This document shows, piece by piece, positions 2,391 to 22,046 of a stretch of 55,695 nt of DNA (its first letter is position 1; every line of letters begins with the position of its first letter). This DNA is from Acidobacteriota bacterium (lineage in GTDB: Bacteria; Acidobacteriota; CAIWXX01), in assembly GCA_016191015.1 (NCBI GenBank), contig JACPPM010000215.1, positions 1-55,695 on the forward strand. The letters run 5' to 3'. The translations under genes and the position numbers were made by a program. The notes beneath the pieces are model-generated. The model worked only from the letters and a program-made list of their open reading frames with translations. It had not been told where the DNA came from and did no database searches.

Positions 2391-2540
2391 CGGCCGCTGC
2401 TCGATCGAATCGTCCGAGATCCCGCGATAAGGCGACATCTGCTTCATCGTCTCCCTCGCTATGGTGCTCACGCATCAGGGCGCCCGTGGCGCCATCCTCT
2501 CGCGCGTTGACACCAACCCATCTCGTGGAAAACAACCATC

Positions 2541-2632
2541 TAAGAAAACCCTTATCTACGTGCTCGCGGTTCTTGCCCTTTTTCTCAGGATCATCGGGGC
2601 GCGTCGTGCGAAGATGTGGGCGTAGGGAGGAG
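2541..2632 (+). promoter_or_regulatory. Conserved leader with TAAG-N6-CTTA inverted repeat (copy 1)
   Basis: About 92 bp before the gene at 2639 align with 6703-6793, upstream of the gene at 6960. Both begin with the inverted repeat TAAG-N6-CTTA (2541-2554 here), continue with GTTCTTGCCC and CTCAGGATC, and end in GATGTGGGCG or GATATGGGCG followed by a purine-rich GGGAGGAG stretch. Conservation in a non-coding leader suggests a shared regulatory site; the binding protein is unknown. Confidence 0.5.
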
Positions 2633-2638
2633 ATCGCA

Positions 2639-4050: not shown

Positions 4051-6366
4051 CTAGCGAGCCACGCTCGTCGAGGCAACAGCAGACCGCATCCGGACATAGG
4101 CTCGACAGAACGCCGGGCTCAGATGCCACGAGCTCTCCCGGATCGCGCTTTGATATGCAGCCGCTGCCTCGGCTCGCCTGCCGCTGAGCCAGTGGCGATC
4201 GCCGGCGTAGAGCGAGAGCATCTCCCGATGCATCGTGCCGCCGCTCAGGTAGTCGTCGATCGATGTGCGGCCGAGGAGCATTCCGGCCGTCTCGGCGACG
4301 CCCGGCGTGGGCGACTCGAGGGCGTGCGTCAGTACGTCATGTGCGCGAGTCGGCTGGCCCGCCTCCAGGTGCAAAACGGCCAGATCGAGTCGGTCCAACT
4401 CCTGCTCGAGGGCAGTTCCGTGAGGCGTGCGAATCTCATCGTCGAGGGCCGCAGCCGCCGCCTGCCTGTCCGCAGCGAGCCACTTCGCCAGGACGTCCCA
4501 TTCGCCGTAGAGGCGCGCGGGTAGGGGATCGCCTGGGAGATTCGTCAGGATGCGCTGTGCAGCAGCGGATGCCTCTCTCGCACGGCCCGCCACGCTGAGA
4601 ACCAGGGCCTCGCCCCACAGTCCCGTGAGCGAGAACCGGGGGTTGATCTTCTCGAACTCCCGTTGCATCTGCCCGTAGAGCTCCAGGGACCGGTCAAATT
4701 CTCCCCGCATGAACGAGACGAGACCGAGCAGGTGCTGGGCCTCATACCGTGGCTTTCCCGGCCTCTTGTGCTCGGTGAGGAAGGCGGCCAAGGCGGCGCG
4801 AAATCGCTCATCGTCGGGTTGACCTGCGGCGAGCTTGAGTGCCGCCCGCTCCACAACCAGCGGCTGGGACGCGAAGCGCTCGACGACAAACTGCTCCGTC
4901 TCAAGACATCGATCGATCTTGCCGGCGCGACGGAAAAGCGAGGCGACGTTCATGAGCTCGCTCGCGATTCCATAGAGCACGGCCTCGTCTGTCGCGATTG
5001 TGCGATAGTGGGCAAGGTGACGGTAGGCGTCGTCCATCGCGCCGGTTTCCGCCAGAGCACGGCCGATGCCGAGTCGCGCTACCGCCACGTACGCCTCCTC
5101 CGCCGCCGAGTCCTCGACCTTCCGGAACGCTTCCTCCGCCGCCGCATACTCGCCCATCGCCATCAGGCACATCCCCACTTTCGCGAACGCCTCACCGGCG
5201 AGGCGAGTGCCTGCGTGATCGCGCATCACCTGCTCGTACTCACTCCGCGCCGTCTCATATTCACCCCGGTCGAAGAGCCTGTCGCCGACAGCAGTAGGCG
5301 ACACCAGGCTGGGGATGCGCGACCGGCTGATCCGAAGATTGTCAACCCTGAGAATACCGTCGTAGGTACCGATCCGCACTCTGCCATGTTCGGCCGGATT
5401 CAGCGGGATCGGATCCTGATACCTGATGACCGTGGCTCCATCGATGGACATTTCCAGCAAGTCTCGCCGTCGTTCGATCGTGACATGGTAGGGATGATCG
5501 GGTTCAATCTGGCTCATAAGAGAGACCGCCACCTCCATCCCATTCCGATCGATGGCCGCCACGCGGTAGTCGGCTCCAGCCCCGAGGTAGTACCCCTCCT
5601 GCACCTCGGCCGCGTCGCGGCACAGGAAGACAGCGATCTCCCGCTTCGGGCTCGCCCGCGGTACCACCGCATCGAGCTCGATCCGCACCTCTCCTCCGAA
5701 ATGCTGCATGACGTCGATGTTGACGAACCCGCTTCCCTCGCCTCTGAGTGCCCCGTAGGCGAGCCCCCAGCGGCCTGACAAGACGCCGTAGCTCGGACCC
5801 ACCTCCGATCTCTCGAAGTCGTCCGAGAACACCTGAACCCAGCTCTCATCCCGCCTCCCCTCCCCGCTCGTCAGGATCACGATCGTCGCGACAATCGCGC
5901 TGCACAACAAAAAGAGTGAAGCAACCACGAGAAGGCGGCGCCTCGATCTCACCGGCTGTGCCGATTCAGCCGTCGCCGCCCGCTCGGCGGCCCGCTCAGC
6001 CGTCGGCTCGGCCGTCGGCTCGGCCGTCGGCTCGGCCGCCGGCTCGGCCGCCGGCTCATCCTCCACCATCGCCGCCCGTTCCCCTTCCCACCGATATCCC
6101 TCGCCCCGGACTGTTCGGATCAGATCCGATCTCTCGCCGAGGACCTTGCGCAGCTCGGAGACCTGGAACGTGAGCGCCTCCTCGACCACAGCCACATCCG
6201 ACCACAACTGATCAAGGATGTTCTGCCGCGTCAGGATGCGGCCGGGGTTCTTGAGGAACAGGAGGAGAAGATCGCTCATCTTCGGCGTCAGGCTGATCAC
6301 GCGCTCGCCCTGGACGAGGCTTCGGCGCGCAGGATCGAATCTGAAGCCGTCAAAAACGTATGTCAC
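4051..6366 (-). CDS. ToxR-like membrane regulator: winged helix, TM, LamG-like sensor and TPRs
   Basis: A 771-residue protein from the GTG at 6366. Residues 1-100 are an OmpR/PhoB-type winged helix (LTPKMSDLLLLFLKNPGRIL, then the recognition helix and the RTVRGEGYRW wing). A low-complexity linker of AEPA/AEPT repeats follows, then one membrane helix (LLVVASLFLLCSAIVATIVI). The outer part has a concanavalin/LamG-like beta-sandwich (FSDDFERSEVGPSYGVLSGR to VDNLRISR), then about ten TPR-like helix pairs to the end. Topology implies cytoplasmic DNA binding and periplasmic sensing. The frame extends to an ATG at 6510, but that stretch does not resemble the family. It lies between two genes with a shared leader (2541, 6703), its plausible targets. 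Confidence 0.85.
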   Translation of the reverse strand: MTYVFDGFRFDPARRSLVQGERVISLTPKMSDLLLLFLKNPGRILTRQNILDQLWSDVAVVEEALTFQVSELRKVLGERSDLIRTVRGEGYRWEGERAAMVEDEPAAEPAAEPTAEPTAEPTAERAAERAATAESAQPVRSRRRLLVVASLFLLCSAIVATIVILTSGEGRRDESWVQVFSDDFERSEVGPSYGVLSGRWGLAYGALRGEGSGFVNIDVMQHFGGEVRIELDAVVPRASPKREIAVFLCRDAAEVQEGYYLGAGADYRVAAIDRNGMEVAVSLMSQIEPDHPYHVTIERRRDLLEMSIDGATVIRYQDPIPLNPAEHGRVRIGTYDGILRVDNLRISRSRIPSLVSPTAVGDRLFDRGEYETARSEYEQVMRDHAGTRLAGEAFAKVGMCLMAMGEYAAAEEAFRKVEDSAAEEAYVAVARLGIGRALAETGAMDDAYRHLAHYRTIATDEAVLYGIASELMNVASLFRRAGKIDRCLETEQFVVERFASQPLVVERAALKLAAGQPDDERFRAALAAFLTEHKRPGKPRYEAQHLLGLVSFMRGEFDRSLELYGQMQREFEKINPRFSLTGLWGEALVLSVAGRAREASAAAQRILTNLPGDPLPARLYGEWDVLAKWLAADRQAAAAALDDEIRTPHGTALEQELDRLDLAVLHLEAGQPTRAHDVLTHALESPTPGVAETAGMLLGRTSIDDYLSGGTMHREMLSLYAGDRHWLSGRRAEAAAAYQSAIRESSWHLSPAFCRAYVRMRSAVASTSVAR

Positions 6367-6539
6367 GTCAAGTCCACCGTTCCAGAGTCGGACGCGCCGG
6401 CTCGTCCCTCCAGCCGCTTCTTCCCGCTGTGTGATCTTCCCCACCGGGAGCCCGACCCTCTCCCGCGGGAACCTCTGCAGATTCTCGCACAAGAGGCTCT
6501 GCTGAGACAAAGAGGCAGTCAGGTCTTTCGGGGACTCGT

Positions 6540-9308: not shown

Positions 9309-9614
9309 AACACACGGCACGCTCATCGGAGCGGATGCGCCGACGCCGCAGACGACGGTGCGGCCGCGCCCACGGCGTGGGCAGGGGCAAGAGAAGTCAC
9401 GAGGACGAACAACCGATTCATTTCCATCTCCAATTTCGAGTCGCGTACATCCTTCGAGAATTCAGATCGGCTGGAAGCGTGCCAGGCTCATCTCCGCCGC
9501 ATGGCCGGTGCGCCGACACTGCACCTACCGGATTCTTCATGTGCGGCTGGCTTGTGCGCGTTCCTGATCGATTGGATCACGGGCTCGATTATCCGGGAAT
9601 CGGAGGTGGAGCCT

Positions 9615-10240
9615 CCGATTGTCCTCGAGAAAGCCGGCCTTAGCTTCATCGTCGTGGCTCACGCCCGTGTGAAGCTCCTCGATGACGGCCAGGCTTTTGC
9701 GAAGGGACAGAAGCGCCTGTTCCCGCATGCCGAGCTGTCGCTGAATGACGCCCATCCCGTATGCCGCGGCCTATCGCACGCACTCATTGCCAGTCCGAAT
9801 GGAATCGTCGATCTCCAGATGCCCGCACTAGAGCGCCTTCTTCGCATCGCCGAGCAGCGCGAACATCCGGCCGAGATCGCCGAGCGTCAGGCTGAGATAT
9901 GGCAGACGGATCTCCTCGCCTATGTCTCTCGCCCTGATGTAGCAATGCAGAGCGGACTCGTAGTCGGCCAGATCGAGTTAGATTTCGCCGGTGATGCCGA
10001 TGTCATCAGCCAGGGCGCGTCGATCTCCGATCTCTTCCCAAATCGCTTCTGCCCGCTGGTGATAGGGGAGAGCCTGGGTGTTTTCACCATTGCGTCCATG
10101 CACAAGTCCGATACCGGCGAGCGCCCATGCGGGCCGGACACCGGTTGGTTCCTCCATCACGCGCAGGAGGGTCCGAGCCTGCAGCGCCTCGCCCCTGCAC
10201 CGGGCGCATGCCACCAGGTGCTCGCGGACTGCGCGACTAC
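9615..10240 (-). pseudogene. Decayed anti-sigma/TPR-CHAT fusion remnant
   Basis: Reading the minus strand from 10240, the zinc-finger segment VREHLVACARCRGEALQART and RVMEEPTGVRPA matches the anti-sigma factor at 16465-17376. At about 10125 it jumps in frame to WALAGIGLVHGRNGENTQAL, which matches the TPR part of the CHAT protein at 13500-16445. After about 9980 the frame shifts several times but still matches (MGVIQRQLGMREQALLSLRK to KAGFLED). Everything in between and the CHAT domain are lost. Clearly a deletion derivative of a second copy of the sigma/anti-sigma/CHAT module. Confidence 0.85.
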
Positions 10241-10324
10241 GACACTTGACGCGGATGGGACCCCCGTCGCAGCACCCACTAGTGATCCCCGTCACGGCAC
10301 TACGTATGGCATGTCCGGCTGCCT

Positions 10325-10350
10325 GGTACGTCCCCCTCGCCACTCTGTCT
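10325..10350 (+). promoter_or_regulatory. Putative ECF promoter GGTAC-N17-GTCT (site 1)
   Basis: GGTAC at 10325-10329 and GTCT at 10347-10350, exactly 17 bp apart and 59 bp before the ATG at 10409. The same pair with the same spacing lies before the genes at 11960, 18180 and 20085. The layout resembles ECF-sigma promoters (GGAAC-type minus 35, GTC-type minus 10). The likely reader is the sigma factor at 17373-17957. Confidence 0.7.
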
Positions 10351-10408
10351 CCCGAAACGAGTGACCGATGCCCGGTCCAGAGGGGAAGTCGCAGAAGGAG
10401 GAAAGAGA

Positions 10409-11152
10409 ATGCGAATCAACAATTCCAATCCATTTGCCAGAAACGACGGCGGCATGTCGGCCGGCGCCGTGGCCAAGAAAAGCGAGAATAACCAAGGGGC
10501 GACAGCGGGCACGAAGCCCACACGAGCCCTCTCTGCCACCACTCGCGATTCCTATGAAAGAAACAAACCCTCGGGAGTATTCGATCAACAGCCCAGCTTC
10601 TTCCGGCCTGCGGACGCTGGCTCCGCCGGAGCCTCCGAATCTCAACGCCGCCTGCAGGAGGCCGGGAAGGGAGGGTCGCTCCCTCGGATTCCCGAGCTCC
10701 CAGCCGACCTGGGTGCCCTGAAGGTGCCGATGAAAAGCAATGGCGTCGGGGACACCATCATGGAGTGGTTGGATAATGTCGCCAACGCCCAGGCAGTGGT
10801 CGAAGGCGTCACCGGGGATTCCGGTTCAAGCGATCCTGAGCACGCGCGCGGTCCGTGCATCCTCTGCGATGATCCTCACACACCGGAGTGGGCGAAGGCC
10901 ATCGTAAATCGTGCGGTGAACACGGTGACGGGTGGAGACATCACGGAGATTGTTGAGTCAGTAGCCGAGGCTGCCTTGGGGCAGCGGGGCGACGAGGAGG
11001 ATCGCAGAAAACATCGTGGACGATGCCGCAAGAGGCCCGCTAAGCATGGCACTGGGTGTGATCGGGTCGAATCCGTCCCCCTGGGCTCCCCAGGGAGGTG
11101 GCCCTCCGCCACTCCCCGGGCGTGGGGATGGCGTGGAGGACGGAGAGGATGA
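10409..11152 (+). CDS. Low-complexity protein, 5' part of a probably frameshifted gene
   Basis: The ATG at 10409 has AAGGAGGAAAGAG directly upstream. The protein starts MRINNSNPFARNDGG and has no signal peptide; a TRDSYERNKPSGVFDQQ segment at about residues 46-62 resembles TQDRYQQTPTPNAFEQL in the small protein at 12958. A region with two Cys pairs (GPCILCDDPHTPEWAK) and helices (VNRAVNTVTGGDITEIVES) follows. After about 10985 the frame becomes an Arg-rich tail, while frame 3 (see 11016-11855) continues sensibly (IAENIVDDAARGPLSMALGV). A one-base indel in the G-rich run near 10980-10995 would join them to about 482 residues. Function unknown; controlled by promoter site 1. Confidence 0.6.
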   Translation: MRINNSNPFARNDGGMSAGAVAKKSENNQGATAGTKPTRALSATTRDSYERNKPSGVFDQQPSFFRPADAGSAGASESQRRLQEAGKGGSLPRIPELPADLGALKVPMKSNGVGDTIMEWLDNVANAQAVVEGVTGDSGSSDPEHARGPCILCDDPHTPEWAKAIVNRAVNTVTGGDITEIVESVAEAALGQRGDEEDRRKHRGRCRKRPAKHGTGCDRVESVPLGSPGRWPSATPRAWGWRGGRRG

Positions 11153-11855
11153 CGGCCCGGAGCCTGGGGGCAGGCCCGACAGGCGAGGTCGCGGCAATCC
11201 CGTTCCCATCGGAGGAACGCTCCTCCCGCCAGAAGATCCGTCTGACGGCTACAGTGACGACGGTCCATGGCGTCCTCGAGGACCCTCTACTCCTCCTCAC
11301 GGCGGCGGGCCGGACGATGACTCGGACGACGGAGGAGACATCGAGCCGGAGGGCAATTCTAATGACGAGGGAGGCGGAGTGCATGGGGCACACCCGGACC
11401 GCCCTCCCAGTACCCCACTCGAACGGACCGGCGACACACCGGACGAACCCCACGACCCGCCCGAGACCCCCAGTGACAAACAAGACGCTTTGAGCTTGGT
11501 CGACGATCTGATCAAGGAGGGCGCCAGGGACAAGGAGCTGGGCCAGGATCCTTCGGTGGGACACGCCCGCCAAGGCAGCTCGAACGACCTTGGTGCACGT
11601 GCGCATCTGCCAGAGGCGCCGCGTGGTGTCACGCCACAACAAAAGGACTTTGTGGGGCCCGCCTTCGCGAAGACAAGCGGCGCTGACGACAAGGAGCGCC
11701 CGGCTGTGGGAGCGACGTCGGGCAGGCCATCGAGCAACGATCTGCACGGCGACGTCGGTGGGCCACATCAGCTGAGGTCGAGCGCAGGTCCCCAGGCTGG
11801 CGAGCTGGCACCTGACCCGCGGGTGGTGAGCCCTATCGATCCGGGCAAAGTGTGA
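11016..11855 (+). CDS. Pro/Gly/Asp-rich low-complexity protein, 3' part of a probably frameshifted gene
   Basis: This frame is open from before 11000 and has no ribosome site of its own, so it is best read as the continuation of the gene at 10409 after a frameshift. It is dominated by Pro, Gly, Asp and Glu (GGGPPPLPGRGDGVEDGEDD, HGGGPDDDSDDGGDIEPEGN), hydrophilic and probably disordered. No domain is recognised. The composition resembles the linker of large secreted or contact-dependent effectors, but there is no direct evidence for that. An alternative is that the two halves are translated separately. Confidence 0.5.
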   Translation: MDDAARGPLSMALGVIGSNPSPWAPQGGGPPPLPGRGDGVEDGEDDGPEPGGRPDRRGRGNPVPIGGTLLPPEDPSDGYSDDGPWRPRGPSTPPHGGGPDDDSDDGGDIEPEGNSNDEGGGVHGAHPDRPPSTPLERTGDTPDEPHDPPETPSDKQDALSLVDDLIKEGARDKELGQDPSVGHARQGSSNDLGARAHLPEAPRGVTPQQKDFVGPAFAKTSGADDKERPAVGATSGRPSSNDLHGDVGGPHQLRSSAGPQAGELAPDPRVVSPIDPGKV

Positions 11856-11875
11856 GCGCACTCACGGCTGCCCTT

Positions 11876-11901
11876 GGTACATCCTTGGATTCAGGATGTC
11901 T
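11876..11901 (+). promoter_or_regulatory. Putative ECF promoter GGTAC-N17-GTCT (site 2)
   Basis: GGTAC at 11876-11880 and GTCT at 11898-11901 with a 17 bp spacer, ending 59 bp before the ATG at 11960, the same distance as at site 1. The spacer sequence differs from the other sites, so the match is not simply part of a long duplication. Confidence 0.7.
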
Positions 11902-11959
11902 CTGTAAATAAGGTGCCGTTTCCCATCAGTGGGAACCGGTGGTGAGAGGAGAGGCTTTC

Positions 11960-12961
11960 ATGCGACACGGAAGACGATCGATCTACCTGGCTTGGTGCAC
12001 GACGCTCGCTTCGTTCTGTTCACCGCTTGGCGCATATGGGTCCCACCAATGGGCACACATGATCGGCTGGGGTAGTGTCGACTATCATCCCTCGTCCGTA
12101 GACGCGACCGCGGACGGAGGGTTCGTCATCGCTGGATACACGAGCTCATCGGGCCTCCCCACAGACGCATGGATAGCGAAGCTCAGTGCGGCAGGGACGA
12201 TCTCCTGGCAGAAGATCTTTGGCGGAGCCGATGGTGACTATGCGGAGGCGGTCAGACAAACGGCCGATGGTGGCTACATCCTCGGAGGCTACACGGAATC
12301 CTTCGGGAATGGGTCCGAAGGATGGGCGCTGAAACTTGATGCATCGGGCTCCGTCGTATGGCAGAAGACCTACGGAGGAACGGGGGACGACGTCATACTG
12401 TCCCTAGAGCAGACTGGCGACGGTGGTTACATCTTCGCCGGACGCACCACGAGCTTTGGAGCGGCGGACAGCAACGCCTGGACCGTGAAACTCTCTGCGA
12501 CCGGAACCGTGGAGTGGGAGAAGCGGAGAGCCACAAATCAGGCCATCGATCTCGCCTACTCCATCAAGGCGATCGCAGGCGGTGTGTACGCCATGGTGGG
12601 GATCGCCGAGGGGAATGCGGGCAGTTGGGATATCTGGTTCCTCCGGATCAATCCAACCGGCACGGCAACGGATCGACACATTATCGGCTCGAGCAAGAAT
12701 GATCTCGGAAAAGCCATCGATGCCGCGGGCGACGGCGGTTGGTTCGTGTCGGGGTACTTCGATAGTGGCGCCGGCACCGGGTATGACGGCTTACTCCTGA
12801 AACTCAACTCCAGCCGATCTCACAGGCGCTGCCTTGAAGCGGTGTGGGGATCACATCCAGGAGGACAAGGGCGAACATCAGGTCCGCAGGATCTCGCAGA
12901 GAAGACCGAGTCCACAACGACACCGAGTATCACTGATCGAGTTGAGGAGGATTCGCGATGA
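11960..12961 (+). CDS. Secreted delta-60-type beta-propeller protein, C-terminally replaced
   Basis: Signal peptide (MRHGRRSIYLAWCTTLASFC up to AYG) and then about six blades with the pattern QTADGGYILGGYTESFG, WALKLDASGSVVWQKTYGG, closely related to the protein at 20085-22046. After about position 12815 (LLLKLNSS) the blade pattern stops and an unrelated Ser/Arg-rich tail follows to the stop at 12961. The missing PKD part survives in degraded form at 13370-13490, so the gene is a truncated paralogue of 20085. The stop overlaps the next ATG (ATGA). Start chosen by GAGGAGAGG upstream and promoter site 2. Confidence 0.8.
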   Translation: MRHGRRSIYLAWCTTLASFCSPLGAYGSHQWAHMIGWGSVDYHPSSVDATADGGFVIAGYTSSSGLPTDAWIAKLSAAGTISWQKIFGGADGDYAEAVRQTADGGYILGGYTESFGNGSEGWALKLDASGSVVWQKTYGGTGDDVILSLEQTGDGGYIFAGRTTSFGAADSNAWTVKLSATGTVEWEKRRATNQAIDLAYSIKAIAGGVYAMVGIAEGNAGSWDIWFLRINPTGTATDRHIIGSSKNDLGKAIDAAGDGGWFVSGYFDSGAGTGYDGLLLKLNSSRSHRRCLEAVWGSHPGGQGRTSGPQDLAEKTESTTTPSITDRVEEDSR

Positions 12962-13338
12962 AGATCAGCAACCCAGGTTCATTTCCCTCCGCCGCAGGCA
13001 GTGTCACGGCCAGCGGGGAAGCCGGAAGCTCGAGGCACGTCCAACAGCCGGCGTCACGCAAGAAACCGGCAGCCGCCGCCGGCAACACACAGGATCGATA
13101 TCAACAGACGCCGACACCAAATGCGTTCGAGCAGCTGGTCAGACCCAGCGATCTCAGCCGGCAGGCAGAGCGCAAACGAGCTGGACCGACGCGCGGCGAA
13201 TCCGGCGATGGGGAGCCCGAGGCCATGACCCTCAACTCGCTGACCTCGAAGCGCTCGTCAGCGGTCCAGCTGGCGTCGAAGACCCTGAGCGACACGGCCA
13301 GGTCCAGCGGGGCAATCATCGGGAATATTGGCAAATAG
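12958..13338 (+). CDS. Small hydrophilic protein, MKISN family of unknown function
   Basis: A 126-residue protein without signal peptide, overlapping the previous stop by ATGA and preceded by GAGGAGG. It begins MKISNPGSFPSAAGS and contains TQDRYQQTPTPNAFEQL; both features recall the N-terminus of the protein at 10409 (MRINNSNPF; TRDSYERNKPSGVFDQQ). The C-terminus is a predicted amphipathic helix (SAVQLASKTLSDTARSSGAI). It sits exactly between the truncated propeller and the relic of its lost C-terminus, so it was inserted or brought in by deletion. Function unknown. Confidence 0.6.
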   Translation: MKISNPGSFPSAAGSVTASGEAGSSRHVQQPASRKKPAAAAGNTQDRYQQTPTPNAFEQLVRPSDLSRQAERKRAGPTRGESGDGEPEAMTLNSLTSKRSSAVQLASKTLSDTARSSGAIIGNIGK

Positions 13339-13369
13339 GTCCTCCGACAGATGCTACATGGTGACCGTC

Positions 13370-13490
13370 TCGAGCCATCCCCGCGCCGCTCCCGGGGATT
13401 ATCAATGGGCAGTCGATGTTACAGAAGCCGGCGCCAGCCCATGCGCGCGATCAGGTTCCATCACGATCTCGGCGAAAGCCTCCGGCCGGC
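13370..13490 (+). pseudogene. Relic of a PKD domain from a propeller gene
   Basis: One frame reads RAAPGDYQWAVDVTEAGASP and CARSGSITISAKA, matching YAAPGTYPWTLNVTAPGANA and CSQSGSITISSTA in the protein at 20085-22046. No start and no adjoining domain remain. It is the severed 3' part of the propeller gene at 11960. Confidence 0.8.
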
Positions 13491-13499
13491 AGCGCCCGC

Positions 13500-16445
13500 T
13501 TACAGCGCCTCCCCGATCAGAACGAATGGCGCCCAGTAGATGGGATGCTCAGCGATCACTTTGCCCGACGGTGTTCGGAGCTTCTTAGCGCGCAACTGTG
13601 AGATCATGTCCATCTGAGCCGCGCGAAGGGCTGCAGCCTTGCCGCCGCCCGGGGTCTTCAGAACCGAATAGAACTTCTCCATCTCGGCCGTCGCTACGAG
13701 GTCGGCCACACGCCACAGGCTGACGATGACGCTGGGTGTTCCCGCATAGAGGAAGGCGCGGCTCAGACCGATCACACCGTCACCGTTCACCTTGCCCAGG
13801 CCGGTGTTGCATGCGGAAAGAACCACGAGATCGGCGTGCAGGTCCAGGTTGAACACCTCTCTGGCGGTGAGCCGACCGTCCTCGGGCGGTGCCGGCGCCA
13901 GAGCGAGGAAGCTCTCCAGCGGGAGGTCGTCGCGGATGACGCAGTGCGTCGCGAGATGAATCATCGTCTGCTGCCCCGCCAGCTCCCTCACCTGTTGCTC
14001 TCCGGCCTGGGTCCCCGTCAGCTCGATCACGTTCGTGGACGGGAACAGGCGGCCGATCGCCCGGGCTTCGGCCTCGGCCCCCGGGAGCGGCGGAAACGGC
14101 TCGTCGGCCCACGGCAGGCGAGGCATCGCGGGATTCCCGACTACAAACAGGTGGGGGTCCTCCCGGTGGATGACTCGAGCCTTGCCGGCGGCCGTGTACC
14201 TGAGCACGCTCATCGCCGGGCTGTAGTGGATCGTGTGTTGTTCGATGAGATAGCGGCCGTTCTTGTCGAGAAGGGCGGCAAACGAGACTAGAAACAGAGG
14301 CCCGTGAGGGATGACGGTGACCAGTGCGTGAGGGTTGTTCGGGAGAAAAGCCTCGATCGGCTGGATCAGGAGCTGGTGCAACCGCCTGAGGACGGCCCGC
14401 GGGTCCTGCCCAGCGCCGGCGCCACGGCTCGGCCTTCCCGCCCTATCCGCACCCTTCGGCGCTTCAGCCACCTCCCAGGCCCCGACATCGGCCTGCATGA
14501 CACCGCGCATCTCCCGGACGAGATCATCGAGCTCGCGTCGGGTTATCGCGGAGGCAGCGACATGCAGATCGCCGCCGGGCCTTGAAACCCAGATGAAGAG
14601 CCTGTGTTCAGTGACGAAATACTCGACGACAGTGATTTCGCGGTGGCGTGCGTCATCCAGAAGCTGAGTGATCGGCTGCGGCTGCGCCTCAACGAGGCTC
14701 GCCAGCTCCACGCCCTGTGTCCTCAACTTCCCGATTTCCGCCCTGACGATCTCCTGTCCCCTCATGGCAATCTCGCCATCTTCGGCGGCGGTCGATGCGG
14801 CGAGCTGTGTCTGGGCGGAGGGCCGCTGACTCGCCACGGCGGTCATCGCGTCCTGCGGTGACACGTGGAGCTCCCTGGCCCGGAGGAGATCGAGAAAGGC
14901 GCGAGCGCGCGCACGCTCAGCCAGGTCCAGCGCTTCCTGCGCCCGCCCGAGCTCAATCAGCAGATCGATAGTCTCCGCAAACACAATCTGCTTGTCCTCG
15001 AGAAAGCCGGCCTTGGCTTCATCGTCAGGGCTGACACCTGTGCGAAGCTTCTCGATGACGGCCAGGCTTTCGCGAAGGGACAGAAGCGCCTGTTCCCGCA
15101 TGCCGAGTTGTCGCTGAATGACGCCCATCCTGTAGTCCGCGACCCATCGCATGCCCTCATTACCGGTCCGGATGGAATCCTCGATCGCCTGCTGCCCGTA
15201 TGAGAGCGCCTTCTTCGCGTCGCCGAGCAGCGCGTACACTCGGCCGAGATTGCCGAGCGTCAGGCTGAGATATGGTAGGCGGATCTCCTCGCCCATGTCT
15301 CTGGCCCTGATGTAGCACCGCAAGGCAGAAGCGTAGTCGCCGAGGTCGAGGTAGATGTCGCCGGTAATGCGGATGTCATCCGTCAGCGCTCGTCGATCCC
15401 CGATCTCTTCCCAAATCGCTTCTGCCCGCTTGTGATAGGGGAGAGCCTGCGTGTTTTCACCATTGCGTCTGTGCACAAGTCCGATTCCGGCGAGTGCCCA
15501 TGCCTCTTCGCGCCGGTCGCCCGCCTGCTGCCTGGACAGCAAGTACTGCTGGTAGCACTCGACCGCCTTCCCGGGCAGACCCTGCAGTCCGTAGACCAGG
15601 CCCAGGTGACGGAGGGCCCTTGCGCGCCCGGACAAGTCCTTGCCGAGCTCCGCCAGCTGCAGCGCTTGACGGAAGTGGGCAAGAGCTTCCTGGTAGGCCC
15701 CCTGGAAGCAGTATGAGAGACCGACGTGGATGCAGGAGACCGCTTGTCCACGCAGATCCCCCAGCGCCTCGTAGTTCCGGAGCGCCCGCAGATAATAGTC
15801 GATGGCTTGCGTATAATGGAATTTGTCGCGGTAGAGGCTGCCCAAGCTCTCGAGACTCCGGCTCTGCAGGGTGAGATCTCCGGCCGCCTCGGCAACCTGC
15901 AGCGAGCGCGCGTAGTGCTCGAGAGCCTGGTCATAAAGACCCTGCTTGAAGTAGACCTGCCCGATGCGGCGGCGTGTCACGGCTTCGCCCTGCAAATCAC
16001 CGGTCTCGGTTTCAAGGGCGATGGCTTGCAGGTGATAACGGAGAGCCTCTCCGTAGTCCGCACGACCCCAGTAGCAGTGGCCGATCCCGGTGAGGATCAT
16101 TGCCTCGAGTGCAGCGTCGCCGGCCTCCCGCGCCAGCTCGAGCGCGCGGCGGTGCTGGGCGCCGCCCATCGCGAGGTCCCCACGGTCGTTCGACAGGATG
16201 CCGTCATAGAGGAGACACTTGGCTTCGATCCGCGGGTCCTTCAGCTCCCGCCCGACTCTCCGCGCTTCATCCAAATCGGATCGAATGCGTACAAAATCGC
16301 GCTCTTCGAAGGTCCTTTCGACTTCTGTCAGCAGTGCTTCCGCCCGTTTCCTTGATTGCTCTGAATCGGACGCCACAGCAGAATTCACGCATGCCGAGAT
16401 CCAGAACGCCCAGATCACTCGGGTTCCGGACCGTCGCCAGCCCAC
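13500..16445 (-). CDS. Exported TPR-CHAT caspase-like protease
   Basis: A 981-residue protein from the GTG at 16445, preceded by a strong GGAGGAGG and 19 bp after the anti-sigma stop. A signal peptide (residues 1-25, TRVIWAFWISACVNSAVA) predicts export. Residues about 60-480 are TPR pairs (EALRYHLQAIALETETGDLQ, ALAHFRQALQLAELGKDL). The C-terminal third is a CHAT domain with the catalytic pair His834 (IHLATH) and Cys879 (LSACNTG) and the terminal HPIYWAPFVLIGEAL. CHAT domains are clan CD cysteine peptidases. Last gene of the sigma/anti-sigma/CHAT operon, it could process the periplasmic tail of the anti-sigma factor; that is inference. The frame is open to 16673 but overlaps the upstream gene there. 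Confidence 0.9.
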   Translation of the reverse strand: MGWRRSGTRVIWAFWISACVNSAVASDSEQSRKRAEALLTEVERTFEERDFVRIRSDLDEARRVGRELKDPRIEAKCLLYDGILSNDRGDLAMGGAQHRRALELAREAGDAALEAMILTGIGHCYWGRADYGEALRYHLQAIALETETGDLQGEAVTRRRIGQVYFKQGLYDQALEHYARSLQVAEAAGDLTLQSRSLESLGSLYRDKFHYTQAIDYYLRALRNYEALGDLRGQAVSCIHVGLSYCFQGAYQEALAHFRQALQLAELGKDLSGRARALRHLGLVYGLQGLPGKAVECYQQYLLSRQQAGDRREEAWALAGIGLVHRRNGENTQALPYHKRAEAIWEEIGDRRALTDDIRITGDIYLDLGDYASALRCYIRARDMGEEIRLPYLSLTLGNLGRVYALLGDAKKALSYGQQAIEDSIRTGNEGMRWVADYRMGVIQRQLGMREQALLSLRESLAVIEKLRTGVSPDDEAKAGFLEDKQIVFAETIDLLIELGRAQEALDLAERARARAFLDLLRARELHVSPQDAMTAVASQRPSAQTQLAASTAAEDGEIAMRGQEIVRAEIGKLRTQGVELASLVEAQPQPITQLLDDARHREITVVEYFVTEHRLFIWVSRPGGDLHVAASAITRRELDDLVREMRGVMQADVGAWEVAEAPKGADRAGRPSRGAGAGQDPRAVLRRLHQLLIQPIEAFLPNNPHALVTVIPHGPLFLVSFAALLDKNGRYLIEQHTIHYSPAMSVLRYTAAGKARVIHREDPHLFVVGNPAMPRLPWADEPFPPLPGAEAEARAIGRLFPSTNVIELTGTQAGEQQVRELAGQQTMIHLATHCVIRDDLPLESFLALAPAPPEDGRLTAREVFNLDLHADLVVLSACNTGLGKVNGDGVIGLSRAFLYAGTPSVIVSLWRVADLVATAEMEKFYSVLKTPGGGKAAALRAAQMDMISQLRAKKLRTPSGKVIAEHPIYWAPFVLIGEAL

Positions 16446-16464
16446 GCGACCTCCTCCGTGCTCC

Positions 16465-17376
16465 TCAGCGGGACGCCGGCATTCTCGCAAGCACTTCCTG
16501 TCGGAGCTGCGCAGCCTCTGCGCGACGCGCGCCAGGCGCGGCGGACAGTGCATCCAGCTGTTCGAGTGCCTCGGTGGGCTGACCGTGCTTGAGGAGTGCG
16601 ATGGCGAGATACCAGCGAGCCCCTGCAACCAATGCACCCTCGCCGGTCTTGATTGCGGCTCGAAGCGGCGCAACGGCCTCGGGGGTCCTGCCGAGCATCA
16701 GGAGCGACACGCCGCGATAGAAGTGCGCTTCCGCTTCCCCAGGGTTCCTCGCCAGGAGCTCGGCCAGCCTCCGTTCGGCCTCGGCGAAATCGTCCCGCTC
16801 GTAAGGCTCCATTGCCAACGGCAGCGTGCTCTGCGCCTCGGGCGCCTGCTTGCCGTCTCGGTAGGACATCTCGTGAGGGCCTGCAACCGGCGGGGAGTAT
16901 TCAGCCTTTGCGACCACGAGATCCCGCCATGGATTCGCAGCGGGCGCGCCCGATGCGACCGCCGCCGCCGCCGCCGGTGGCTTCGAGGAACGCGCTTGCT
17001 GTACCGGCTGGATCTCGACTCGATGCGTTCGCCAAAAGAGAAACGCGATGCCGATTCCGAAAACGACCATCGCAGCGGCAGCCAGCAGGAAGGGTGTTCT
17101 CTGTACTCGAACCCATGAGATCTTCGGGAATCGCGCGGGCCGGACACCGCTTGGTTCGCTCATCACTCGCAGGAACGCCCGCGCCTGCGTCGCCTCGCCC
17201 CTGCACCGGGCGCATGCCACCAGATGTTCTCGGACGTCGGCAATCTCCGCCTCGTCGAGCCGGTCGGAATAGAAACCGAGCAGTTGATCGCCCATCAGAC
17301 AGCCAGCGGACGAGGGTTGGGTGTGCCTCGCGATGGCCTTCCGAACCCAACTCAGCATCGATTTATCGTCGATCAT
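16465..17376 (-). CDS. Membrane anti-sigma factor, zinc finger plus periplasmic TPR tail
   Basis: A 303-residue protein. The ZAS-type zinc-binding motif has Cys26, then His51-x3-Cys55-x2-Cys58 (REHLVACARC). One membrane helix follows at about 89-112 (PFLLAAAAMVVFGIGIAFLF). The outer part has a Pro/Ala-rich linker, then TPR-like helices from about 195 (AEAHFYRGVSLLMLGRTPEA, ARWYLAIALLKHGQPTEALE). The start ATG overlaps the sigma stop (ATGA), so the two are translationally coupled. It should hold the sigma factor at 17373-17957 inactive in the cytoplasm and sense or bind partners outside through its TPRs. A degraded second copy of its zinc finger lies near 10200. Confidence 0.9.
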   Translation of the reverse strand: MIDDKSMLSWVRKAIARHTQPSSAGCLMGDQLLGFYSDRLDEAEIADVREHLVACARCRGEATQARAFLRVMSEPSGVRPARFPKISWVRVQRTPFLLAAAAMVVFGIGIAFLFWRTHRVEIQPVQQARSSKPPAAAAAVASGAPAANPWRDLVVAKAEYSPPVAGPHEMSYRDGKQAPEAQSTLPLAMEPYERDDFAEAERRLAELLARNPGEAEAHFYRGVSLLMLGRTPEAVAPLRAAIKTGEGALVAGARWYLAIALLKHGQPTEALEQLDALSAAPGARRAEAAQLRQEVLARMPASR

Positions 17377-17957
17377 TGGCTCTCCTCAGGCTCGGTCTTG
17401 AGCACTCGCCGCAAATTCGCCTTCGCCAGCACCAAGTGGTTGCGCACCGTATTGAGACTCAGCCGCAACGTCTCGGCGATCTCCTCGTACGAGAGCTCGT
17501 CCCGCACGCGCAGCACGAGGCACTGCCGTTGCTGTGGAGGGAGTTGCTCGATCGCGGTCCAGACAGATTCGATCACCTGATCCTCGATCGTTACCTGGTC
17601 GGGCGGGTCCTCAGGGGTGTTCGGATCGCCCGCCAGATCGAGCGGGACCGTGTGCCCCGTTCCTTTCAATCTCCCCGACGCCGTGATCATGGCATTCCGG
17701 GCGATCGCAAAGAGCCACCCCATGAAACTCTCTTCGCACTCGAGGCTTCTCACACCTTGAAAGACATTGGCCAGCGTAGTCTGTACCAGGTCTTCGGCGT
17801 CGCTGCTGCCAAACCCGTGAAACTGGAAGTACTTCAGCAGGCGGCTCCGGAGATGCTCGTCGACAACCCGGAAACTCTCCTCAACCTCGACTCCCGCCCT
17901 CAGATGACGCACAGCTTGGGAGAGCTCCTCGTCCGGGCACAGTCGCGTCCGCTCCAC
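17373..17957 (-). CDS. ECF-type RNA polymerase sigma factor
   Basis: A 194-residue protein with region 2 (LLKYFQFHGFGSSDAEDLVQ, TTLANVFQ, ESFMGWLFAIARNAM) and region 4 (IEQLPPQQRQCLVLRVRDEL, SYEEIAETLRLSLNTVRNHL). Starts with GTG at 17957; the Shine-Dalgarno is weak. First gene of the sigma/anti-sigma/CHAT operon. Four GGTAC-N17-GTCT sites upstream of neighbouring secreted-protein genes are its most likely targets. No matching site is seen before the sigma gene itself; a GGAAC at 18002-18006 on the minus strand lacks a GTCT 17 bp on. Confidence 0.92.
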   Translation of the reverse strand: MERTRLCPDEELSQAVRHLRAGVEVEESFRVVDEHLRSRLLKYFQFHGFGSSDAEDLVQTTLANVFQGVRSLECEESFMGWLFAIARNAMITASGRLKGTGHTVPLDLAGDPNTPEDPPDQVTIEDQVIESVWTAIEQLPPQQRQCLVLRVRDELSYEEIAETLRLSLNTVRNHLVLAKANLRRVLKTEPEESQ

Positions 17958-18100
17958 CGCGGACCGCTCGCGACGTGGAAATGCCGATCGCCACTTGAAC
18001 GTCGGTTCCTCCCTTGAACTTCTGGGATGCCCAGTTGTTGGACAACTTATAGAACGGAATCAGGAGGAATTCAAACGGACGGGCGGCGATACCAGTCACT

Positions 18101-18126
18101 GGTACTTTCATCTCCCCGCCCTGTCT
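18101..18126 (+). promoter_or_regulatory. Putative ECF promoter GGTAC-N17-GTCT (site 3)
   Basis: GGTAC at 18101-18105 and GTCT at 18123-18126, spacer 17 bp, 53 bp before the GTG at 18180. The whole leader from here to the start codon is nearly identical (about 90 percent over 75 bp) to 20008-20084. It lies in the divergent region between the sigma operon and the beta-helix gene. Confidence 0.75.
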
Positions 18127-18179
18127 TGGTGTGTAGATCCCGGTGGAACGTCAGATGAACGGGTCAGAGGAGGTCGAAC

Positions 18180-19961
18180 GTGAGCAACATCCGGATCAGG
18201 CAGCGGTCCTCGCGCAAAACATCGCTCGTCGCGCTGCTGATGACGGTCGGCTCCGTCTTGCCTGCGCCGGCCCAAAGCGCGCCCGTGCTCTATTTCTCGG
18301 ATGTCACGAGCGGACCGAGGAGCGGCAACTCGGACAGTTCGGCGGGGCTTCCGCCCGGGCAAAACGGTGCCATCGTGACCGTCTGGGGCACCGGAATCGG
18401 CTCCAGCCGCGGCACCAGCAAGATCTATTGCAACGGTGCCGAGGCCCCTTCTTATTACTACTGGGGCAACGCCACAAAGCCGGCGAATCTCTACGCCTCT
18501 CATCGCATGCAGATGATCTCCTTCCAGGTGAGCGGCAGCGCACAGAATGGAAGGGGTGTCATCTATGCCGTCGTGAATGGCCAACAATCGAATACGCTCC
18601 CTTTCACAATCCGATCTGGATCGATGTACTTCGTCAAGACCTCGGGCAGCGACGCGACCGGGGATGGCAGTTGGACTCTTCCTTGGAGAACGATCGGGAA
18701 GGCAGTGGCGAGCCTGGCGAACGGCGACATCGCATACGTGGGAAACGGGGTGAGCCAGACGACTGCAGGCGAGTACGACGCGGCAGTGAATCTGGGTTCC
18801 AGCGGCACCGCCGACAACCCCAAGGCGTTGATTGTGTATCCAGGTGCCACCGCGAAGGTTGGCAACCCCAAAATCTATCGTGCCTTCCACAGCTGGGGGA
18901 CGGGCACCGGTGGGTACGTGCAACACTGGGTACTCTCGAAGTTCTCCATCACTACCAAGGTGGTGGGCGTGTTCGCGAACACAGGTTTCAGGGTCGTGGG
19001 CAACCGTCTTACCGGCGCCAAGACGAACGAAGGCATGGAGGGGACCATCTACGCCATCGGCAGCGACCTCTATCTGCTCGGCAACGAGCTAGGCAACATC
19101 GGGACCGCTCAGTCCAACGATTCGAAGCTCCAGCACGTCATCTACGTGACGGGTGTCAGGCAGGACGAAATGCCGCGTGCTCCGACGGAACGGACCCGGG
19201 AGATCGCTTGGAACTACCTCCACGACAACTACGTCAATCGGGGAATCAACATCTACAGCGAACAAGACGGCTCGGCATATATCCAGCAACATCGAATCCA
19301 TGACAACGTGATCGTCAATCAGCGTGGCGACGGAATACTCGTTGGCTACTACGTCACCGCCGAGAACTGGATCTATAACAATCTGATCGTCCGGGCAGGC
19401 CTCGGCCCCGAGCTCGACAACCCCTCGACACATGCCGGCATCCAAATCGACACCGGCCACGAGAGCGTTCCGAGAACGAAGACGATCATTCATTGCTACA
19501 ACAACACGCTGTACGGCTGCGGCTTCTCCGGCGCCGTCTATGCCGGTGAGAACGGCGCTCTGTTCATTACGTCCTCCGCCACATCCCGAAGCACACTGCG
19601 CTTCGCCAACAACATCGTGGTCTCGACCGGTGAACCTTACCTCGCCGGCGACAGCGGCATACCCACATCCGGTGACTACCGGGGCTGCTGGTTCGGAGAT
19701 GGCGCGGCACCGCGGTGGGACGAAGGGGCGATCAACGCCGACCCACAGTTCGTGAGCGCGGCGTCGAGAGACTTCCAGCTCCGATCGACAAGCCCGTGCC
19801 GCGATGCAGGGAAGGATGTTTCGAAGACGGTCGCCCGGGACCTGCTCGGTGTGCCGCGCCCGCAGGGGAGCGCCTTCGACCTGGGGGCGTACGAGCTCCG
19901 CCCGGCTCAGGGCTCCGGCTCTCACGCGCGACGGAAGTCGCCGCGGAACCGGGAGAATTGA
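18180..19961 (+). CDS. Secreted IPT-like domain plus right-handed beta-helix protein
   Basis: A 593-residue protein from a GTG with GAGGAGG upstream. Signal peptide: TSLVALLMTVGSVLPAPAQS. Residues about 35-145 resemble an IPT/TIG-type Ig fold (GAIVTVWGTGIGSSRGTSKI, FQVSGSAQNGRGVIYAVVNG). From about 150 a beta-helix of the pectate-lyase superfamily type starts with MYFVKTSGSDATGDGSW and PWRTIGKAVASL, continues with HDNYVNRGINIYSEQDGSAY and YNNLIVRAG, and ends with DFQLRSTSPCRDAGKDVS and FDLGAYE. Likely a surface polysaccharide-active or adhesive protein; catalytic residues not assigned. Promoter site 3 puts it under the ECF sigma factor encoded divergently. Confidence 0.85.
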   Translation: MSNIRIRQRSSRKTSLVALLMTVGSVLPAPAQSAPVLYFSDVTSGPRSGNSDSSAGLPPGQNGAIVTVWGTGIGSSRGTSKIYCNGAEAPSYYYWGNATKPANLYASHRMQMISFQVSGSAQNGRGVIYAVVNGQQSNTLPFTIRSGSMYFVKTSGSDATGDGSWTLPWRTIGKAVASLANGDIAYVGNGVSQTTAGEYDAAVNLGSSGTADNPKALIVYPGATAKVGNPKIYRAFHSWGTGTGGYVQHWVLSKFSITTKVVGVFANTGFRVVGNRLTGAKTNEGMEGTIYAIGSDLYLLGNELGNIGTAQSNDSKLQHVIYVTGVRQDEMPRAPTERTREIAWNYLHDNYVNRGINIYSEQDGSAYIQQHRIHDNVIVNQRGDGILVGYYVTAENWIYNNLIVRAGLGPELDNPSTHAGIQIDTGHESVPRTKTIIHCYNNTLYGCGFSGAVYAGENGALFITSSATSRSTLRFANNIVVSTGEPYLAGDSGIPTSGDYRGCWFGDGAAPRWDEGAINADPQFVSAASRDFQLRSTSPCRDAGKDVSKTVARDLLGVPRPQGSAFDLGAYELRPAQGSGSHARRKSPRNREN

Positions 19962-20007
19962 CATGACCAGATCGAGAGCAGATCGGATATCACGCATGGC
20001 ACTCCCT

Positions 20008-20033
20008 GGTACTTTCATCTCCCTGCCCTGTCT
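20008..20033 (+). promoter_or_regulatory. Putative ECF promoter GGTAC-N17-GTCT (site 4)
   Basis: GGTAC at 20008-20012 and GTCT at 20030-20033 with 17 bp between, 51 bp before the ATG at 20085. It lies after the stop of the beta-helix gene, so the propeller gene has its own promoter although it follows in the same direction. Confidence 0.75.
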
Positions 20034-20084
20034 TGGTTTGTAGATCCCGGTGGAGCGCCGGATGGACCGGCCAGAGGAGGCAAG

Positions 20085-22046
20085 ATGATGTTGTTCAGGA
20101 CGAGAACTTCAGGTCGTTTGTTCCTGGTTACGATGTTCGCGGGGGCAGCCTTCCCGGCTGTCTCGCAGGCCTCGCACCAGTGGGCGCGAGTGATCGGCGG
20201 GAGCGGGAATGAAGCTCCGTACTCGGTCCAGCAGACGAGTGACGGTGGCTACATCCTGGCGGGGTACACATCGGGCAGCTTCGGAGGTGACCAAAACGTG
20301 TGGCTGGTGAAGCTGGATTCGTTAGGGAACATCTCCTGGCAGCGGACTTTCGCAGGTGGAAGCGGCTCGGAATCGGGAGGTCTGGTCCGGCAGACGGCCG
20401 ATGGTGGATATTACCTGGCATGCTACACGCCGGCTCTTGGCAACGGCGACGAAGCCTGGATACTGAGGCTGGACTCCGTCGGGAGTGTTTCCTGGCAGAA
20501 AACCTACGGGGGGACAAGCACGGAATCGATCTTCTCGTTGGAGCCAACGAGCGATGGGGGGTGTGTGTTCGGAGGTTACACGAGGAGCTTCGGTTCGGTT
20601 GACAACAATGCGTGGGCGGCCAAGCTCTCCTCAAGCGGCACTGTCGGCTGGGCAAAGAGAAGATACATCGGATCAGGACAACAACCCAGCGGATACCAAC
20701 TGCAGACAAGGACGATTGCACCAGACGGGAGTGGGGGGTACGCGACACTGGTCGAGGTTCAGTCTCCCGGGGGTGGAGGGTCCGTGCTGTTTCAGCCTCT
20801 CGATTCGAACGGGGTCATCAGCGGCACCAAGCATTTGATCAGTCTGGGCACTTCCGCGCGCCCTCGGGCAATGGACAGATCCGGCGACGGTGGTTGGTTT
20901 ATCTCAGGGATTGTGTCGGTTTCCGGCAATGGCGATGACGGGCTCCTGATGAAACTGAATTCAACCGGCAGCCCAGTGTGGCAGAAACACCTTGGGGGAC
21001 AGGGCACCAGCTACTTCCTTGACGGAAGATCGACGCCGGACGGCGGGTACGTGGCCGTCGGAGAAACAGAGAGCCCCAGTGACGGGAGCTCGGACGTATG
21101 GGTCGTGAAATTCAATTCTTCGGGCGGTGTCGAGTGGCAGAAAACATACGGCGGCGCGGGCACTGACGTGGGACGCGCGATTGGCCGAACAAGCGACGGC
21201 GGCTACATCGTCGTTGGCGACAGCGGATCTTTTGGCGGTGCCGAGGAAGTGCTCGTTCTCCGGCTCTCGCCGACCGGAGAGATCGACACCTCGTGCGGGG
21301 GATTGGTTGAGACAGCTGCTCAGCCCTCAGCTGACCTGAGCGCCAGTGATAGCACGAGCTTCACCAGTTCCGTCTCCGACACCGCCGTCACGGTCGTCAC
21401 CCCCACGTACGTCATGAACAACACGAATGGTGCCGACACGACTCTGTGCACCTCGTCCTGCCAGGTGAGCTGTTCGGCGACCGTGCCGGCTTCGGGCGTC
21501 GTAGGGATCGCGGCGAATTTCTCGAGCTCTGCTACCCTTGTGGATTGCGGCGGCGCTGTCGCCTATTCATGGGCGTTCGGCGACGGTGGCACGTCAAGCG
21601 AACAGAACCCCGCCTACGCCTACGCCGCTCCCGGAACATATCCGTGGACCCTCAATGTCACGGCGCCCGGTGCCAACGCGTGCTCGCAATCGGGCTCAAT
21701 CACGATCTCATCAACAGCCGTGCCGGATCTGACGGGTGCGTGGACGAGTGTGAAAAAGAAGAAGAGCAAGGTAAACGCGACCTTCTCCTGCCAGAACATC
21801 GACCTCGGGGAGGCCGCGAGCTTCACGGTCAAGCTCTACTTTTCCAGGAAGTCCACGCTCAGCAAGAAGTCAAAGCTCATCAAGACTCAGATCGTCTCAT
21901 CGCTCGCGGCCGGAGGCGTCCTGCCGATCGCCTTCAAGGCGACCCCCCCGAACAAGCACAAGTACCTGATCGCGGTGGTGGACCCGGATGGAGCGGTCGC
22001 TGAGGCGAACGAGGGCAACAACACGATTGTCCGGGCAATGCCGTGA
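20085..22046 (+). CDS. Secreted delta-60-type propeller with PKD and CARDB-like domains
   Basis: A 653-residue protein with signal peptide (RLFLVTMFAGAAFPAVSQAS). About seven to eight blades of about 50 residues follow the pattern QTSDGGYILAGYTSGSFGGD, WLVKLDSLGNISWQRTFAGG. Residues about 465-545 are a PKD domain (YSWAFGDGGTSSEQNPAYAY). The C-terminus is Lys-rich (SVKKKKSKVNATFSC) and ends in a CARDB-like Ig domain (YLIAVVDPDGAVAEANEGNN). The start has AGAGGAGG upstream; two adjacent ATGs are possible. Intact relative of the truncated gene at 11960. Likely a large cell-surface or released protein under the ECF sigma factor. Confidence 0.88.
   Translation: MMLFRTRTSGRLFLVTMFAGAAFPAVSQASHQWARVIGGSGNEAPYSVQQTSDGGYILAGYTSGSFGGDQNVWLVKLDSLGNISWQRTFAGGSGSESGGLVRQTADGGYYLACYTPALGNGDEAWILRLDSVGSVSWQKTYGGTSTESIFSLEPTSDGGCVFGGYTRSFGSVDNNAWAAKLSSSGTVGWAKRRYIGSGQQPSGYQLQTRTIAPDGSGGYATLVEVQSPGGGGSVLFQPLDSNGVISGTKHLISLGTSARPRAMDRSGDGGWFISGIVSVSGNGDDGLLMKLNSTGSPVWQKHLGGQGTSYFLDGRSTPDGGYVAVGETESPSDGSSDVWVVKFNSSGGVEWQKTYGGAGTDVGRAIGRTSDGGYIVVGDSGSFGGAEEVLVLRLSPTGEIDTSCGGLVETAAQPSADLSASDSTSFTSSVSDTAVTVVTPTYVMNNTNGADTTLCTSSCQVSCSATVPASGVVGIAANFSSSATLVDCGGAVAYSWAFGDGGTSSEQNPAYAYAAPGTYPWTLNVTAPGANACSQSGSITISSTAVPDLTGAWTSVKKKKSKVNATFSCQNIDLGEAASFTVKLYFSRKSTLSKKSKLIKTQIVSSLAAGGVLPIAFKATPPNKHKYLIAVVDPDGAVAEANEGNNTIVRAMP

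Follow-up and report, generated by a model that had tools for sequence, protein, structure and literature searches.

A candidate ECF-type promoter with a GGTAC −35 element around a sigma factor, anti-sigma factor and TPR-CHAT operon in an Acidobacteriota genome

Organisation of the locus

The contig JACPPM010000215.1 of an Acidobacteriota bacterium (assembly GCA_016191015.1), analysed over positions 1 to 55,695 of its forward strand and here called the window, carries four copies of a bipartite motif, GGTAC-N17-GTCT, each a short distance before a start codon and lying on both sides of an operon for an extracytoplasmic function (ECF) sigma factor, a membrane anti-sigma factor and a TPR-CHAT protein. 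All coordinates are positions in this 55,695-nucleotide window unless another contig is named. We consider it probable, from the sequence evidence set out below, that the sites are ECF-type promoters and that their reader is the sigma factor encoded between them, so that a small set of mostly exported proteins would probably be switched on through an undescribed promoter type. The principal features are as follows.

10324-10350, plus strand: site 1, TGGTACGTCCCCCTCGCCACTCTGTCT, promoter-like (−35 TGGTACnTyC, −10 TGTCT), 58 bp upstream of the ATG at 10409
11875-11901, plus strand: site 2, TGGTACATCCTTGGATTCAGGATGTCT, 58 bp upstream of the ATG at 11960
18100-18126, plus strand: site 3, TGGTACTTTCATCTCCCCGCCCTGTCT, 53 bp upstream of the GTG at 18180, divergent from the sigma operon
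20007-20033, plus strand: site 4, TGGTACTTTCATCTCCCTGCCCTGTCT, 51 bp upstream of the ATG at 20085, a copy of the site 3 segment
17762-17788, minus strand: a fifth exact match, within the sigma gene, where it codes for conserved region 2 residues DLVQTTLANVFQ
17373-17957, minus strand: ECF sigma factor, 194 amino acids, regions 2 and 4 only (Pfam Sigma70_r2 35 bits, r4_2 63 bits), the proposed reader
16465-17376, minus strand: membrane anti-sigma factor with Hx3Cx2C, one transmembrane helix and a TPR C-terminal part, overlapping the sigma gene
13500-16448, minus strand: TPR-CHAT protein (Pfam CHAT PF12770, E 1.5e-69), with intact His (HLATH) and Cys (LSACNTG) motifs
10409-11855, plus strand: target 1, hydrophilic low-complexity protein with no visible signal peptide
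11960-12961, plus strand: target 2, secreted propeller-repeat protein that lacks part of the C-terminal sequence of target 4
18180-19961, plus strand: target 3, secreted beta-helix protein
20085-22046, plus strand: target 4, secreted propeller-repeat/PKD/CARDB protein, by Pfam

A bipartite motif at a nearly fixed distance from start codons

The sequence-only reading of this DNA had placed GGTAC-N17-GTCT at 10325, 11876, 18101 and 20008 on the plus strand, and all four coordinates are exact. We judged the start codons that follow to be convincing (AAGGAGGAAAGAGA-ATG at 10409, GAGAGGAGAGGCTTTC-ATG at 11960, AGAGGAGGTCGAAC-GTG at 18180 and AGAGGAGGCAAG-ATG at 20085). The gaps from GTCT to the start codon are 58, 58, 53 and 51 bases; the reading had the last three right and counted 59 for site 1, one too many. 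Alignment of the four sites shows that the common motif is longer than the nine-base word, TGGTACnTyC-N12-TGTCT with 13 invariant columns. Its half-sites are asymmetric and lie about two helical turns apart, as in −35 and −10 elements, and GTC is a usual −10 of ECF promoters. A short inverted repeat (TACCAGTCACTGGTA, 18090-18104) overlaps the −35 of site 3 and is not present at the other sites. The minus-strand match within the sigma gene is probably a coincidence.

The four sites do not count as four independent cases. Sites 3 and 4 lie in a duplicated 81-nucleotide segment (18093-18173 and 20000-20080, 88% identical), and since they are one duplicated segment, only three independent cases remain. 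Outside the motif, sites 1, 2 and 3 are mostly near chance identity, their spacers agreeing at 4 to 9 of 16 positions. The sequence-only reading had already noted unrelated spacers at sites 1 and 2. Before the paralogous genes at 11960 and 20085 the motif positions are kept at 11 of 11 and the spacer positions at 3 of 16.

Restriction of the extended motif within the genome

In shuffled versions of the window GGTAC-N17-GTCT matched 0.17 times on average and never five times. Because this motif was chosen post hoc, we also applied a motif-free test that accepts any 6+5 bipartite word with a gap of 14-20 that is shared by three or more of 41 upstream 100-mers, leaving out the site 4 gene and using dinucleotide-preserving shuffles. 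A bipartite word was found in 85 of 13,221 shuffles; when the start distances had also to agree within a spread of 7 nucleotides, this fell to 1 of 13,724 (p ~1e-4).

Statements on the whole 6.43-Mb genome rest on pattern searches. GGTAC-N17-GTCT has 24 matches there, and the 19 beyond the window lie mostly in open reading frames (ORFs), with none at 40-70 bp upstream of a called start. These 19 are background, and the short word alone is not diagnostic; the genome scan that the sequence-only reading had proposed with it thus fails (0 of 19 promoter-placed), whereas the extended motif passes (5 of 5). TGGTAC-N16-TGTCT has five matches in the genome, all within the window, one of them in the sigma gene. 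TGGTACNTYC-N12-TGTC likewise has five, namely sites 1-4 and one on another contig, C273, each followed 51-58 bp later by an ORF that has a ribosome-binding site. An ORF (9501-10364, plus strand) is called across site 1, but as it runs antisense through a pseudogene, the site is treated as intergenic. As a spacing control, TGGTAC-N13..19-TGTC gave 41 matches in the genome; a spacer of N16 accounts for 10, half of which lie in the window.

Across 395 other genomes of the phylum TGGTACNTYC-N12-TGTC matches 39 times, at most three times per genome; among the 29 matches examined, 26 lie within genes and none stands outside genes at 30-80 bp before a start. A weight matrix built from the five sites was run over 0.80 Mb of the genome, mostly around propeller paralogs. 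Scores of the five sites range from 22.7 to 24.7, and the best of all other sequences reaches 18.2, so that within these 0.80 Mb only the C273 site (C273:12934) scores alongside those of the window as a further regulon member. The sequence scoring 18.2, C168:21205, has no downstream gene and was rejected.

A fifth site on contig C273

The extended motif was derived from sites 1-4 only, and the C273 site (12934-12908, minus strand; 12934-12909 as matched by TGGTACNTYC-N12-TGTC) is therefore an out-of-sample case. The ATG that follows it after 57 bp has a ribosome-binding site (AGAGGAGG / AAAGAGGAGG) and opens a 20-codon ORF overlapping, as ATGATG, the gene for a protein of 482-511 amino acids with a signal-peptide-like start. 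Upstream of the site and divergent from it is an anti-sigma remnant (phmmer E 6.8e-7) that is, by eye, closer to the anti-sigma factor of the window than to its paralog on contig C109. The regulon had been described as lying around the sigma gene at 17373-17957; the sites of the window do flank its operon, but the set reaches beyond this neighbourhood to C273.

The surroundings of the fifth site form a minus-strand gene run (C273:223-15675, L263) for secreted repeat proteins, among them beta-helix, sortilin/BNR and RTX-type nonapeptide repeat proteins, which adjoins an ECF sigma gene (2535-3116) and a Ser/Thr kinase gene. Some genes on C273 have short out-of-frame ORFs directly after the promoter-like site. 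Two possible decayed relatives of the motif, TGGTAC-N16-GATCT at C273:15600 and TGGTAT-N16-GGTCT before the other beta-helix paralog, were not counted as sites.

The sigma factor operon and its copies

The sigma, anti-sigma and TPR-CHAT genes form a single minus-strand operon. The sigma factor has regions 2 and 4 and neither region 1.1 nor region 3, as expected of an ECF (group IV) protein, and its PDB matches are ECF sigma factors. The overlapping gene encodes a putative co-encoded anti-sigma factor, whose Hx3Cx2C motif and transmembrane helix we read from the sequence: the motif is HLVACARC in the window and HLVGCRAC in the C109 paralog, in agreement with class I zinc-type factors. By Pfam its TPR_16 match is above the cut-off and zf-HC2 (E 0.002) is below it. 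The third product carries the sequence hallmarks of a CHAT protease and looks exported, its start VGWRRSGTRVIWAFWISACVNSAVASDS being signal-peptide-like by eye; we regard it as a predicted protease. By-eye inspection for a promoter of the sigma gene showed a TTGAAT-N17-TATAAG, which the promoter scan did not accept. A second TPR-CHAT gene of the window (31238-34387, minus strand) lies near a kinase-TPR gene (28282-31095).

The genome holds a paralogous ECF/anti-sigma/TPR-CHAT operon on contig C109 (L163:15497-19866), with 51% identity in the sigma factor and a phmmer E of 5e-280 for the CHAT protein. There are no TGGTAC sites near this operon, although a propeller gene lies 8 kb away. A broken copy of window operon sequence stands just upstream of site 1 and divergent from it:

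9619-10229, minus strand: degraded chimeric pseudogene, made of a TPR-CHAT copy (9619-10130, 88%) and an anti-sigma copy (10129-10229, 86%)

Its two parts join at 10129/10130, and the 1.6 kb between their source segments is missing. The region around the sites thus has a history of duplication and decay. Of the five motif sites, site 3 stands divergently beside the sigma operon itself, and site 1 and the C273 site stand so beside its remnants; this divergent neighbourhood at three places is the best sequence evidence that would link the motif with the sigma factor.

Target genes

The reading of the controlled genes as encoding secreted propeller and beta-helix proteins and a hydrophilic low-complexity protein was borne out by Pfam and the translations, with secretion predicted from sequence. 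Targets 2 and 4 (11960 and 20085) are 47% identical and have signal-peptide-like starts. Their propeller family has 113 matching stretches in the genome; no match of the extended motif outside the window precedes another of its members, and the motif therefore marks only part of the family. Target 3 has two paralogs (35%), at C273:4016-5857 and C273:13213-15675.

Several of these genes bear marks of rearrangement. A probable frameshift near 11010 (11005-11020) splits target 1 into ORFs 10409-11152 and 11016-11855. The propeller gene at 11960 loses its frame and its C-terminal half (12820-13480), and a small gene follows:

12958-13338, plus strand: small hydrophilic protein, overlapping the end of target 2, its N-terminus resembling target 1

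This gene is in a probable operon with target 2, and we found no other copy of its product elsewhere in the genome. Positions 13384-13470 hold what is left of a copy of the PKD part of gene 20085, at 72%. The layout at 12820-13480 suggests an insertion or rearrangement within the propeller gene.

Relatives in the phylum

A search of 297 genomes of the phylum gave no sigma ortholog at E 1e-25, and the best matches in 396 genomes are 29-39% identical. The flanks of 20 sigma homologs show no GGTAC-N17-GTCT cluster. Nor did these 20 flanks yield a shared bipartite word, in what is a weak test, as its starts were called mechanically and, with its distance limit, the motif of the window itself went undetected too. 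In other genomes (L241, L248, L250, L253 and L255) the ECF sigma homolog is followed closely, on its own strand, by a TPR-CHAT gene. An Rfam search gave no match. An identical 27-mer, TGGTGGATTCTTGGTGTCTTGGTGACT, occurs at 235-261 of the window (minus strand) and at L297:10712 (plus strand), on two contigs, and is probably part of a dispersed repeat.

The recognition helix and −35 specificity

We aligned the recognition helix of the window sigma factor with that of E. coli RpoE (SigE), using an RpoE sequence that agrees with the residues named in the −35 structure paper; the helix could be aligned without ambiguity. The aligned residues are R171, N172, H173, V175, L176 and K178, with V and L at positions 175 and 176 where SigE has F and R. 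In the −35 complexes of SigE and SigW, R171/K170 reads the G opposite C−31, S172/T171 reads −34, R176/R175 reads G−35, and F175/H174 packs near −32/−33 (PMC6713349). By this alignment the sigma factor retains the residue that reads the final C, and the residues nearest −33 and −36/−35 are changed. V175 and L176 would fit the altered −35 TGGTAC, with its T at −33 and its invariant T at −36. The closest paralog, the C109 sigma factor, has a different recognition helix, with A and Q at 175 and 176.

Typical ECF promoters have AAC and CGT elements, and the A-tract of the −35 is needed for geometry (PMC8103513); AAC in the −35 is given as a hallmark that rests on the few cases studied and is not presented as universal (PMC8103513). 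The putative −35 is TGGTAC, without AAC, at all five sites. Just as the sequence-only reading did not recognise a GGTAC variant, our literature search, which covered part of the literature, did not find GGTAC as an ECF −35; in one paper that contains both terms, GGTAC belongs to a cloning primer.

Discussion

Because the motif is bipartite and asymmetric, has a fixed spacer and a fixed start distance, is retained between paralogs, is restricted within the genome and recurs on C273, we read the sites as ECF-type promoters. The earlier proposal of an ECF promoter set is thus supported by sequence tests, including the shuffle test, by placement and by the independent C273 site; promoter function and the link to this particular sigma factor are what we infer from them. 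If so, region 4 of the sigma factor would read the −35 TGGTAC(nTyC) and region 2 the −10 TGTCT/TGTCC 16 bp away, giving 5’ leaders of about 40-50 nucleotides. The anti-sigma factor, with its Hx3Cx2C domain inside and its TPR part outside, may keep the sigma factor inactive at the membrane until an outside signal leads to its release, with the exported TPR-CHAT protein as the likely sensor of that signal or the protease that carries it out. The released sigma factor would then drive five transcription units, whose mostly exported products are the propeller/PKD and beta-helix proteins, the hydrophilic target 1 and, from C273, one or more secreted proteins.

Several observations weigh against this reading. 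We found no ortholog accompanied by a similar cluster of sites, hence there is no cross-species footprint. R176 is lost though G−35, its contact in SigE, is kept, a combination that the promoter reading does not account for. Target 1 has no signal peptide, and both its gene and target 2 look damaged. Many ECF sigma factors are autoregulated, positive autoregulation being typical though not universal, and the sigma operon has no site of its own, the minus strand being free of the motif over 17958-18110. About 29 ECF paralogs are detectable in the genome, any of which might be the reader, and the C273 cluster that holds the fifth site has a different ECF gene (2535-3116) adjoining a kinase gene. 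It is conceivable, though we think it unlikely, that one of these other ECF sigma factors reads the promoters and that their proximity to the operon reflects the history of a duplicated gene cluster. The divergent placement of three of the five sites beside this operon or its remnants speaks against this, as does the C273 remnant, by eye nearer to the window anti-sigma factor than to that of C109; the closest paralog, C109, differs at 175/176 and has no such sites nearby.

Explanations that dispense with a promoter fare worse. A winged-helix TPR regulator is encoded in the window (4051-6510) and site 3 lies within the inverted repeat described above, so the motif might be the operator of a dedicated DNA-binding regulator. 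We find this quite improbable, as the two half-sites do not repeat each other in either orientation, the inverted repeat of site 3 is missing at the other sites, spacing and start distance are promoter-like, and GTC is as in an ECF −10. Shared ancestry alone, with an upstream segment copied along with the genes and the motif under no selection, could draw on the copied sites 3 and 4, on a region full of duplicated fragments and on the 28 of 60 positions identical in the 60 bp upstream of sites 2 and 4; yet sites 1, 2, 3 and C273 each lack at most one motif position, and in most pairs their spacers and flanks agree at about the rate expected by chance, which makes it very unlikely. Chance is scarcely credible: the nine-base word does have its 19 background matches elsewhere, but the shuffle test was equalled only once, and extended matches are promoter-placed in 5 of 5 cases here against 0 of 29 elsewhere.

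ECF-type promoters read by the sigma factor at 17373-17957 would resemble the classical promoters of E. coli RpoE (GGAACTT) and B. subtilis SigW (TGAAAC) in being bipartite, with a spacer of about 16-17 and a GTC-type −10, and in keeping the final C of the −35 together with its reader arginine R171. They differ from them in that TA replaces the A-tract AA at −33/−32 and an invariant T stands at −36; the sigma factor has V/L at 175/176, not F/R or H/R. ECF41 promoters, TGTCACA-N16-CGTC/TGTC (PMC3426412), share with them a −35 without AAC in a TGnnAC frame, a 16 bp spacer, a GTC −10 and a very small regulon adjoining the sigma gene. Membership of ECF41 was rejected, however, for ECF41 has a C-terminal regulatory extension, whereas the 194-residue window protein ends shortly after region 4 and has a separate membrane anti-sigma factor. 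Non-AAC −35 elements of ECF promoters are thus known (PMC3426412), and what is probably new is GGTAC in this role.

The operon invites two further comparisons. Class I zinc-type membrane anti-sigma factors (PMC7406223) share the Hx3Cx2C motif, the single transmembrane helix and the gene overlap with the ECF gene, and lack the C-terminal TPR part and accompanying TPR-CHAT gene seen here. In type III-E CRISPR systems, Csx29 (TPR-CHAT), Csx30 and CASP-sigma (PMC10028731) likewise unite a TPR-CHAT protease, an inhibitor and an ECF sigma factor in one locus with local target promoters. In the window, unlike in that system, the CHAT protein looks exported, the inhibitor is a membrane Hx3Cx2C anti-sigma factor and not Csx30, and proteolysis is putative. 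No Cas7-11 or Csx30 family appears among the 20 window proteins scanned with Pfam, a set smaller than all ORFs, and the locus is not classed as type III-E or Craspase.

A bolder proposal, possible but doubtful, is that here, away from any CRISPR system, an exported, caspase-like TPR-CHAT protease acts by way of a membrane anti-sigma factor to control an ECF sigma factor, which in turn would use a new class of promoters, with T where the conserved A-tract would stand at −33, to drive secreted repeat proteins. Control by the CHAT protein is our inference. If the proposal were true, CHAT-linked ECF modules would be common in the phylum; a CHAT gene lies near the sigma homolog in 10 of 20 phylum loci, a raw count that a general abundance of CHAT proteins in the phylum might explain. 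The pairing, in one operon, of a caspase-like CHAT protein with a membrane anti-sigma factor suggests a route of sigma release for which the sole precedent that we found is type III-E CRISPR. ECF sigma factors are held to require the A-tract of the −35 for its effect on DNA geometry and not for contacts with its bases (PMC8103513, PMC6713349). Promoters with TA in its place, beside a sigma factor altered at the facing residue, would allow ideas on the evolution of −35 specificity to be tested directly.

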